Shown: in pieces, positions 20,230 to 23,751 of the stretch
How positions within the stretch are numbered: the first letter of the stretch is position 1
How the letters are laid out: every line of letters begins with the position of its first letter
From: Dehalococcoidia bacterium
GTDB taxonomy: Bacteria; Chloroflexota; Dehalococcoidia; UBA2247; RBG-13-53-26
Assembly (NCBI GenBank): GCA_016932645.1
Contig: JAFGCL010000028.1
Location: 1-32,491, forward strand
Length of the DNA: 32,491 nt
Direction of reading: 5' to 3'
Notes under the pieces: model-generated
Databases searched by the model: none
What the model saw: only the letters and a program-made list of their open reading frames with translations
Told to the model about the DNA's origin: nothing
Translations under genes and position numbers: made by a program

Positions 20230-21579
20230 CTAGTAGTGGTAGACCCTGACTTCTTCCAGAACCGGCGTCATTGTGATATCCAGCGTAGTCAAAGTAGCCC
20301 GCCACTGCATGTACCGACCCGAAGGCAGGCCCGATGTGACCGGAGACGTCCCACCCACCGGTATCCAGGTTAGCGTCGCATTGTCCGCAGTGAACAGAGT
20401 GTCGCTGGCCCGGACTTCAAAGGGGATGTCGGTACTGGCCGGGATTGTCTCGTCCCAGAACAGAGCATCCCATCTCGCTCCAGCCGCACCTGTATCTCTC
20501 ACTTGAGAAGCCACAGTACCTGAGTTGACATATGTAGTTGTGTCAACAAAGGCCAGCGCGCCTCCGCCTGTCACGTTGGCTAGGGTATTGGCCACGTGTA
20601 TCCAGGAATCGCCGAGAGCGTCATATCTCCAGAAGTCAGTCGTCCCATTTCCCCTGAACGCGTAGATATAGCCTGAACCGGCGTACGCCAGTGCTCCTCC
20701 AGCACCAACTCTGGCGGGGGCATTGGCCATTGCTGCCCACGTGTTGTTGCCAATGTCATACTGCCAGAAGGCGATCTGATTGTTGCCCCTCAAGGCATAT
20801 ATGTAACCGGAGGCGTCAAAGGCCAGCGCCCCCCCTGCGCGTACCCTGGCCGGGGCATTGGCCATCGCCGTCCATGAGTTGCTGACAGTGTTGTACCTCC
20901 AGAAATTCGTTCGGTTATTTCCCCGAAACGCATAGATGTAACCGGCGCCATCGAAGGCCAAGGCACCGCCATCTGCCACATTGGCCGGCGTGTTGGCCCT
21001 GGTTCCCCAAGAGTTGTTGGCGATATCATACCTCCAGAAGGCATTGGTGCCGTTGCCCCGCATCGCGTAGACGTATCCGGAGCTATCGTAGGCCAGCGCC
21101 CCTCCTGCGCCGACATTGGCCGGCGCATTGGCCAGTGTTGCCCAGATATCGCTGACAGTGTCATATCTCCAGAAGGTCCTTCTGTTGTTGCCCCGGAGGG
21201 CATAAACGTAACGGACACCGTCATAGGCCAGGGCGCCGCCCATGCCAACCACATTCGGCGTACCTGTCATGGATGTCCAGGAATCGCCGGGAACGCCGTA
21301 CACCCAGAAGTTGGCACTCCCACCCCGCAAGGCATAGACATGACTGTCCCTGGCCAGCACCACATTGTCGGTGCTGCTCCTGGTATCAGTCTGACTCGCG
21401 ATCCCGGCCTCAAAGTCCGCACGAGTGGTCTGTACCCATTGAGTGGAGGTCCACGCCTGGAAGCTGTTGGCCAAGGAGGATTCAGAGTCCGTGAAGCTGC
21501 CAGCCACCTCCCCGATGCCGCCGGCAAAGAGGGCCAAGCCAAGGGTGAACACCACTACGAGCCACCGCATGCCCCGCAT
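20230..21579 (-). CDS. Secreted Kelch-like repeat protein with TasA/camelysin-like N-terminus and C-terminal surface-type beta domain
   Basis: Signal peptide MRGMRWLVVVFTLGLALFAGGIGEVAGSFTDSESSLANSFQAW, then repeats GGALAY..GYIYAFRGNN..FWRYD...SW..MANAPA. ATG 21579 has a GGGAGCGGGA RBS; an alternative ATG at 21612 overlaps the upstream gene. Confidence 0.85.
   Translation of the reverse strand: MRGMRWLVVVFTLGLALFAGGIGEVAGSFTDSESSLANSFQAWTSTQWVQTTRADFEAGIASQTDTRSSTDNVVLARDSHVYALRGGSANFWVYGVPGDSWTSMTGTPNVVGMGGALAYDGVRYVYALRGNNRRTFWRYDTVSDIWATLANAPANVGAGGALAYDSSGYVYAMRGNGTNAFWRYDIANNSWGTRANTPANVADGGALAFDGAGYIYAFRGNNRTNFWRYNTVSNSWTAMANAPARVRAGGALAFDASGYIYALRGNNQIAFWQYDIGNNTWAAMANAPARVGAGGALAYAGSGYIYAFRGNGTTDFWRYDALGDSWIHVANTLANVTGGGALAFVDTTTYVNSGTVASQVRDTGAAGARWDALFWDETIPASTDIPFEVRASDTLFTADNATLTWIPVGGTSPVTSGLPSGRYMQWRATLTTLDITMTPVLEEVRVYHY
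20566..21375 (-). repeat. Six tandem 135-bp (45-aa) Kelch-like repeat units inside the CDS
   Basis: GGALAY/F repeats at fixed 45-residue spacing (five intervals, no indels), preceded by one degenerate unit. Confidence 0.85.
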
Positions 21580-21589
21580 TCCCGCTCCC

Positions 21590-22828
21590 CTACTCTCGTT
21601 TTGCCCCGGCATCGGCCTGGGCGGGCTCCTTCCAGTGCACCTCCAGCATGGTGCTTATTTCAGCCACGATAAGCGCAATGCCGATGAGGCCCAGGAGTAT
21701 GAAGCCTATCGGCGTCTTCAGGTATTCGACGACATAACCGACATGAGGGACTTTGAAGCAGACCCTGCCAACCACATTCTCAGCCACTACCAGGTAGGGG
21801 TCGACATCCTCATTGGCATCACCCTTGGTTCTGAAGCGGTACGATTCGCCCACTTCCACGGCTGTGACCCGGTGGCTCATCAGTTTGCCGTTGGTCGTAG
21901 AGCGGAAGGTGATGATGTCGCCCACCTTGATATCCTCCGGTTTGACAGGCTTGGTGACCTGGACACATCCTACGGGCAGTGCCGGCTCCATGCTGCCGGA
22001 CAGCACGGTGTCCGCGCGCCAGCCGAAGTGGGGGGCCAGCATTGCCAGCACCACCATGGTCATGAGCACGACCACCAGGGCGATCCCGACATACTCCGCC
22101 ACCTTCGCCGCCTTCACCACCCATTTGGGCATCCTTGTCTGCCATCCGTCTTGGCGCGTACCGTTTGAAGGCGACTTCGCGCCAGGTTGAGTTGGATCGG
22201 CCTCCCCTGCTTTCGGCTGGAGAGTCTGGACAGCCGGCAGTTCGGCTTCGAGAGATATTGCGGCTCCGCTGACCCGGGAGGCCTGAGGCTCATCCTCAAT
22301 AGGACTGTGCTGCGGCCGCGTCTCGTTGTACTGGCCCTTCCAGTTTCCCAGCAGCGTTCTCGCCTCCGGCAAGGTCGCGAAGGTTGGGCTGGCGAGGACT
22401 TCATCCCTCAGCCTGGTCCCCAATAGCCACGCACCGTCCTCTTCCCAGCCGCCATCCGGTTCGGCCACTGCGGTTTCCACTGAGAGATGGCTCAGCCATT
22501 CGGCAACCGCCTCTGAAACCGATTCTGATCCACTGCCCAGGACGATGTACTTCGGGATTTCCCTGAGGACCAGCAAGTCGAACAGTCGGTCAACGATGTT
22601 TTCCAGTGATATCTGACGATCGGCCGATATTGACAGACATTCCAGCGTGTACCCGTCGAGTATGGCCAGGACTTCGAAAGGCTCGCCATCGGGTGTCTGC
22701 GCCTCCACGAACGCGCAGTTCCAGACGTGGTCCTTGTATCGTGGATGGAGCCTTCTCTGAGAGCTGAGGCGCGACCGCCGACGTCCCAATCCGGGGCGTC
22801 TGTTTCGCACCTTGGTAGTCTCAGCCAT
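21590..22828 (-). CDS. SipW-type signal peptidase I with an N-terminal degenerate IS3-family integrase (rve)-like domain
   Basis: C-terminal half has TM helix then DTVLSGSMEPALPVGCVQV, KVGDIITFRS, LMSHRVTAV, TKGDANEDVDPYLV. N-terminal half reads HPRYKDHVWNCAFVEAQTPDGEPFEVLAILDGYTLECLSI...LRDEVLASPTFATLPEARTLLGNWKGQYNETRPQHSP. Confidence 0.88.
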   Translation of the reverse strand: MAETTKVRNRRPGLGRRRSRLSSQRRLHPRYKDHVWNCAFVEAQTPDGEPFEVLAILDGYTLECLSISADRQISLENIVDRLFDLLVLREIPKYIVLGSGSESVSEAVAEWLSHLSVETAVAEPDGGWEEDGAWLLGTRLRDEVLASPTFATLPEARTLLGNWKGQYNETRPQHSPIEDEPQASRVSGAAISLEAELPAVQTLQPKAGEADPTQPGAKSPSNGTRQDGWQTRMPKWVVKAAKVAEYVGIALVVVLMTMVVLAMLAPHFGWRADTVLSGSMEPALPVGCVQVTKPVKPEDIKVGDIITFRSTTNGKLMSHRVTAVEVGESYRFRTKGDANEDVDPYLVVAENVVGRVCFKVPHVGYVVEYLKTPIGFILLGLIGIALIVAEISTMLEVHWKEPAQADAGAKRE

Positions 22829-23086
22829 CAGGATGCTCCCAGACCTGGTTCACTGACTGGTGTCTCCGTCAGCTTTCTCACTTCTCTTGGATATGGCCAG
22901 AAGACCGGGAGCCTGCCGCCGCCGGCCGACCGCGTGCTCTGGTCCTCGCGATTTCCCGTTCATATGTTCCCTTCTTCCTGTTCAAGGTCCTATACATCAC
23001 CTGAGCCGACCCCAAGGGGCCGGCTCTCAACCGTCGGGTTGCAGTCCCACAACCCCTCGGGCTACGACGCATTTCTACGGTTGCTG

Positions 23087-23113
23087 TCTGGGGCGGCACC
23101 AAGCCGCCCCAGA
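23087..23113. terminator. Strong hairpin downstream of the TasA-like gene (attenuator/processing or Rho-assisted terminator; no U-tract)
   Basis: Perfect 11-bp inverted repeat TCTGGGGCGGC-ACCAA-GCCGCCCCAGA, 12 nt after the stop of the TasA-like CDS. Confidence 0.5.
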
Positions 23114-23124
23114 TGCATAATGGA

Positions 23125-23751
23125 CTAGGCCTGAGTCAAGTTGAACGTGATGTCAATGCTCGCGGTGTCGCTCTGGATGACGTTGCCAACCGTAGAGTCT
23201 ATCTCCCAATAGAGCTCATAGGTGGTATCCAAACCAGCATCCAGCGCCACATTCTGGGCCTCCAGGAATGCTGCCAGTCCGGAGAACGGTATCAGACCGG
23301 TGAGGTCAGTCCCGTCCTGGATCAACCTGCAATACATGTACTCGTCAAGGTCGCCGTTGCCACCGTTGTTGTTGCCAGCCGCCTTTCCTTCCGGCTCGTT
23401 GGTGGTGTTCTCGTCGAAGTCCACTGTAACGTTATCGAAGGTCAAGTCGCCGTTTACAGTCCCATCATTGGTCAATATCCAGACAATGGTCCCATTGTCA
23501 CCAGGGGCAACGTTAGTGAAGACAACGTGACCGACTATCCCGTTGACATTGTCAGAGGGGGTCACGACGAAGTTTGCCCCCGTTGGGCTTGTACCCTCAA
23601 CCCACGTCAGCAGGTCCAGCGTCCCAGCGGTGAAGACGCTTGGATCGCCGGACTCGGTGTCGTCGAATGTTCCGTACAGGCCGCCAATCAGCAGCGCCAG
23701 CATGAGCACCATGACCGCGATCAGGGCAGACAGTCTAATCTTCCTCTTCAT
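23125..23751 (-). CDS. TasA/camelysin-like SipW-dependent secreted protein
   Basis: MKRKIRLSALIAVMVLMLALLIGGLYGTFDDTESGDPSVFTAGTLDLLTWVEG matches the SipW-dependent signal-type N-terminus (F-D-T-E...F-TAGTLDL). ATG 23751 has AAAGGAGGTGAG upstream. Confidence 0.88.
   Translation of the reverse strand: MKRKIRLSALIAVMVLMLALLIGGLYGTFDDTESGDPSVFTAGTLDLLTWVEGTSPTGANFVVTPSDNVNGIVGHVVFTNVAPGDNGTIVWILTNDGTVNGDLTFDNVTVDFDENTTNEPEGKAAGNNNGGNGDLDEYMYCRLIQDGTDLTGLIPFSGLAAFLEAQNVALDAGLDTTYELYWEIDSTVGNVIQSDTASIDITFNLTQA

Follow-up and report, generated by a model that had tools for sequence, protein, structure and literature searches.

A signal peptidase gene joined in frame to an IS3-family integrase core that has lost its catalytic site, in two species of Dehalococcoidia

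The fused gene and its operon

The window, by which we mean the whole stretch of 32,491 nucleotides analysed here from a Dehalococcoidia bacterium, carries on its minus strand a sip gene whose product begins with an IS3-type integrase core and ends with a signal peptidase. The gene lies between those of a TasA/camelysin-like secreted protein and a secreted Kelch protein (Table 1). An earlier interpretation, made from the letters of the DNA and called here the sequence-only reading, had described it as one uninterrupted frame, and it is indeed a single frame of 412 codons, stop-free and starting with ATG. In a profile search residues 12-175 match the NCBIfam model transpos_IS3 (NF033516, E 3e-14), and the N-terminal part also matches Pfam rve_3 (E 9.6e-7, over its cut-off) and rve (2.3e-6, under its cut-off), in agreement with the IS3-like character that had been given to residues ~15-180. 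The alignment to IS3 OrfB, which had been called gapless, is nearly so, with one extra residue (Q173 in RPQHS).

The C-terminal part was correctly recognized as a SipW/ER-type signal peptidase. Residues 249-396 match the SipW/archaeal-type family with an E-value of about 1e-29 (TIGR02228, 2.1e-29, over its cut-off); the SipW model NF046067 matches with E 2e-28, but at 99 bits versus an equivalog cut-off of 190. Ser279 (SGSMEP) and His319 (SHRV), the latter not Lys, are kept in the orthologue and in unfused relatives, and the family profile, the Ser/His pair and the adjoining TasA-type substrate gene together place the protein in SipW/ER-type signal peptidase I (S26B).

Table 1. Features of the fused gene and its surroundings; all coordinates are positions in the window.
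Feature	Position	Strand	Basis
Fused gene: dead IS3 integrase core and SipW-type signal peptidase, 412 aa	21590..22828	-	ORF and profile matches; orthologue L004:890-2266
Ribosome-binding site GGGAG, 7 nt upstream of ATG	22836..22840	-	
Residues 26-184: IS3 OrfB catalytic-core (rve) domain, RNase H fold, acidic	22277..22753	-	Profiles, charge, AlphaFold/Foldseek
Codon 39: former catalytic Asp 1, now Ala; Ala in sister too	22712..22714	-	Alignment to intact relatives
Codon 98: former catalytic Asp 2, now Gly; Ser in sister	22535..22537	-	Alignment to intact relatives
Codon 134: former catalytic Glu, now Trp; Glu retained in sister	22427..22429	-	Alignment to intact relatives
Residues 185-233: disordered fast-evolving linker, pLDDT about 30-40	22130..22276	-	dN/dS, AlphaFold
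TM helix 1, residues about 243-264, preceded by basic residues (N-terminus predicted inside)	22037..22102	-	Hydropathy, model
Signal peptidase catalytic region, residues about 265-372, with Ser279 and His319	21713..22036	-	Profile, alignment
TM helix 2, residues about 373-393	21650..21712	-	Hydropathy, model
Possible IS3 orfA start relic (MNGKSRGPEHAVGRRRQAPGLLA), suggestive only	22895..22963	-	
Leader hairpin, kept in sister; at no other locus in 10 family genomes	23002..23026	-	
TasA/camelysin-like secreted protein (M73); likely ATG at 23751 after AAAGGAGGTGAGAAG	23125..23751	-	
Secreted Kelch protein; ORF overlaps sip gene end; N-terminal SFTDSE..NSFQAW of SipW-substrate type	20230..21612	-	

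The upstream neighbour matches Peptidase_M73 (3.6e-5), with a weak TasA match, and the overlap of the Kelch ORF with the sip stop codon suggests translational coupling. The N-termini of both neighbours (FDDTES and SFTDSE..NSFQAW) resemble those of SipW substrates. Hydropathy and the basic juxtamembrane residues predict a cytoplasmic integrase core and an external Ser279/His319 site. This topology and the N-termini of the neighbours lead us to propose a working peptidase with a cytoplasmic acidic module, whose activity and substrates are predictions.

On the minus strand the interval from the TasA-like gene to sip contains two strong hairpins, that of Table 1 and another at about 23085-23117. 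Both occur in the sister species described below with paired-base changes, and the second (GAGCCGGCCCCTTGGGGTCGGCTCA) also is found only at this locus among 10 family genomes. They may perhaps be a processing or attenuation element that tunes the TasA:Sip ratio. No RNA family is present in the window at Rfam gathering scores, and a search of the leader at relaxed thresholds returned nothing past chance.

A second species and the origin of the fusion

Among 15 genomes of the order, a second fusion was recovered in a MAG of the same genus (G004, contig CALMBS010000424.1, L004/L048), so that the architecture does recur in another member of the Dehalococcoidia, where the sequence-only reading had proposed to look for it. 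The protein of this sister species has 458 aa and is 61% identical across residues 25-410, and the gene order TasA-like - fused sip - Kelch is common to both; the comparison set thus consists of two fused sequences, each from a metagenome bin.

The second occurrence bears on the possibility that the fusion is an artefact of annotation, either an assembly chimera or an internal peptidase start preceded by a frame that is open by chance. The window genome is a fragmented MAG (238 contigs, 73% complete), which leaves room for such an error; however, the same junction, within a matching operon, is present in an independently deposited MAG contig, the two proteins having diverged to 61% identity, and dN/dS upstream of the peptidase is well under 1. 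Moreover, codon 233, which alone between the domains is an in-frame ATG, lacks a ribosome site and reads CTG in the sister, and inspection for ribosome sites found no usable internal peptidase start in either species, so that the start of the fused protein is not an artefact. These observations refute the artefact in practice, and we consider it extremely improbable.

In everything searched, which is a part of the public genomes, the architecture occurs in no more than two species, both uncultured Chloroflexi and members of a single genus. Among 393 genomes of the class there are no further fusions, IS3 and Sip matches being apart except in these two species, and the 400 genomes examined from the phylum likewise have the two kinds of domain in separate proteins. 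No fusion was found in viral contigs, and a GTDB r220 scan with short peptide patterns, which rare members could escape, returned only the sister MAG and an Oligoflexia IS3. The fusion is absent from a third member of the genus (G003, 95% complete), which carries an unattached IS3 fragment and a Sip that is distant; therefore the fusion is not needed genus-wide. The free IS3 core of this species (L005:1471-2034, minus strand) has an intact DDE but is truncated, with a decayed right end, and is possibly a relic of the element family behind the fusion. An unfused TasA-Sip operon is present in a relative, G383 (L023), and its layout is the ancestral state.

The fused integrase domains of the two species derive from IS3 and share one origin: in the tree they form one clade with support 100/100 and a long shared stem, near those IS3 copies that have TGACCTGCCCCC ends, L024 of the same class among them. 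The Sip tree is weakly resolved beyond the fused pair. An AlphaFold model built with an IS3 alignment has RNase H topology, with pLDDT of about 80-93 over core strands and helices, and its best Foldseek matches are the catalytic cores of the IstA transposase and of retroviral integrase (E about 2e-6); the integrase-type fold anticipated from the sequence was thus obtained. A PDB sequence search with a two-row profile gave no match. The full-length model, with a pTM of 0.39, is weak beyond the two domains and was for this reason left out of consideration for domain packing.

Little is left of the rest of the element. The fused protein lacks the HTH half of OrfB, and neither a DDE triad nor OrfA, as a functional IS3 transposase would have, accompanies it. 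An orfA-like stretch at 22963-22895 (23 codons, 39% identity; shuffle p 0.002-0.018 in the window) is suggestive and not more, because the corresponding place in the sister species shows nothing. Terminal repeats of IS3 were also sought: the best left-end profile match in the 32-kb window does fall at the expected 22988-22935, with E 1.9 and shuffle p 0.15, and was rejected as not significant. With OrfA and the HTH half missing and the DNA ends not significant, an insertion upstream of sip followed by in-frame joining would be the simplest route.

Catalytic loss, charge shift and selection

The claim that all three DDE residues are replaced stands for the window protein (D39A, D98G, E134W) and must be narrowed for the sister, which has lost both Asp and keeps the Glu. 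Judged by these residues, the integrase part is catalytically dead. The loss extends beyond them. Across seven close intact relatives 91 columns are invariant: 33 are retained by both fused domains, mostly outside the catalytic motifs (including W36, D58, C64, W111, D142-E143, W163 and YN..RP.HS), and 34 are lost by both, including the two catalytic Asp. Most of the SDNGPEF and SPWENGYIESFN motifs is gone in both domains, and 34 residues derived relative to IS3 are identical in the two species, many of these being changes from a basic or neutral residue to an acidic one.

A second change concerns charge. The net charge of the integrase domain is -17 in the window and -15 in the sister (pI 4.3-4.4), as opposed to a mean of -1 (range -4 to +3, pI 6.8) among 11 intact relatives that include near-identical copies; several changes from Arg, Lys or neutral residues to Glu or Asp are common to both species. 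An acidic domain of this kind disfavours binding to nucleic acids. The sequence-only reading had offered such binding as one possible role, and a membrane-tethered regulator can be imagined in which the dead core binds DNA or RNA and ties the state of the peptidase or of the biofilm to gene control. Its ancestor was a DNA-binding enzyme and the domain sits ahead of the first TM helix; a bifunctional SipW also offers a precedent, Terra et al. in 2012 having reportedly described a second, regulatory role for the Bacillus protein. An influence of Bacillus SipW on matrix-gene expression is also reported (PMC13082335, where Terra et al. are cited). The parallel is sound in that a SipW can have a second role, but as an analogy it says nothing on the fused domain, which is strongly acidic, has lost the DNA-contacting SDNGPEF and ENGYIESFN motifs and has no HTH half. 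A short basic N-terminal tail (residues 1-25, with 9 K/R and 1 D/E) is not well kept in the sister. On this balance we regard nucleic-acid binding as improbable.

Selection was estimated from a single species pair with dS near saturation, and the linker served as internal control. Between window and sister dN/dS is about 0.22 in the integrase part (pN/pS 0.40, bootstrap CI 0.30-0.52), 0.52 in the linker (pN/pS 0.72, bootstrap 0.51-1.03) and 0.18 in the peptidase part. The integrase sequence is therefore under purifying selection, a conclusion that holds because a dS near saturation would bias the ratios upward, the true dN/dS then being lower. The term "domesticated", applied to the domain by the sequence-only reading, is fair in this sense of selection on sequence, since the domain is also kept in a second species; orthologues in the same place, a single origin, purifying selection and lost mobility, the marks of a domesticated transposase, are all found, in two species only.

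Purifying selection could, nevertheless, mirror the avoidance of misfolding alone. This is the substance of the main rival explanation, according to which the integrase core is a useless passenger: the fused frame would supply the sole start codon, and selection would merely keep the product soluble and folded. In line with it, the integrase part evolves fast overall (56% identity between the species, against 75% in the peptidase), the fusion occurs in two species only, and one catalytic residue is still drifting, being Glu in one species and Trp in the other. On the other hand, the dN/dS of 0.18-0.27 across both parts of the domain is lower than one would expect of a mere spacer, the 34 shared derived residues kept since the split and the consistent charge reversal look directed, and the domain has retained its full length although deletion could easily have shortened it. 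We therefore consider a passenger unlikely, if still the strongest competitor.

Proposed explanation and comparison with known systems

The explanation that we favour, with a probability of roughly 55%, is capture of an IS3 element upstream of sip, which gave a working peptidase a cytoplasmic interaction or anchoring domain. An IS3-family element would have inserted between tasA and sip, in the direction of the operon, in an ancestor of the genus; the end of orfB would have joined sip in frame, and orfA, the DNA-binding half of OrfB and the catalytic residues would then have been lost. What remained would be a folded, acidic, non-catalytic integrase core as the cytoplasmic N-terminus of a SipW-type peptidase that processes the adjoining TasA-like and Kelch proteins. 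The domain would be kept neither as a nuclease nor as a DNA binder; it may act in protein interaction or anchoring, through self-association or by docking to a cytoplasmic or secretion partner. A more specific proposal, tentative and rather doubtful at present, is that the core is dedicated to controlling or assembling the peptidase, bringing it into oligomers or to a cytoplasmic or Sec partner, so that biofilm-fibre processing is regulated from inside. If it is true, the integrase fold would have been put to a new use in a membrane enzyme, purely for protein interaction. The fusion also offers a natural test of cytoplasmic control of SipW-type peptidases.

Bacillus SipW, encoded in the tapA-sipW-tasA operon, processes TasA and TapA (PMC4551309). 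The fused protein is like it in its Ser/His catalytic region and two TM segments, and both operons include a TasA/camelysin-like gene, with flanking genes whose products have N-termini of SipW-substrate type; it differs in a 230-residue N-terminal extension with the integrase core and in scoring below the SipW equivalog cut-off, and the window has a Kelch protein in place of TapA. Sip fusions of other kinds recur in the class. In G268 (L121:442-1782, minus strand) a SipW-type peptidase is fused C-terminally to Kelch-like repeats, as read by eye, a partner of the type encoded beside sip in the window, and in family f6 (L117:1941-3740, L118:1857-3482) such peptidases carry C-terminal tails of 350-400 residues, Pro/Ala-rich and with apparently helical segments. 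In contrast to the window protein, the extra domains of these fusions are C-terminal and unrelated to transposases.

Compared with IS3 OrfB of the TGACCTGCCCCC-end group (e.g. the G208 copy L024), the fused domain has about 42% identity over the core, the same fold and the structural residues, whereas it lacks the triad, OrfA and the HTH half, is acidic, is joined to a membrane peptidase and is not mobile. The ancestral IS3 group, with intact copies in the class, is available together with the unfused operon and two diverged descendants, and the capture can therefore be followed in its steps, which are the loss of catalysis, the charge reversal and selection acting on the new protein.

For eukaryotes the domestication of transposases is well documented; in the open-licence literature we found no bacterial insertion-sequence enzyme made part of a membrane protein, and the fusion is a rare example from bacteria of a host protein that has incorporated a transposase. 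Conceptually it comes closest to primate SETMAR, a host enzyme whose gene likewise captured a transposase domain in frame and which retains specific DNA binding (PMC6326780). The protein described here is instead bacterial, IS3-derived and membrane-bound, and DNA binding has probably not been kept.
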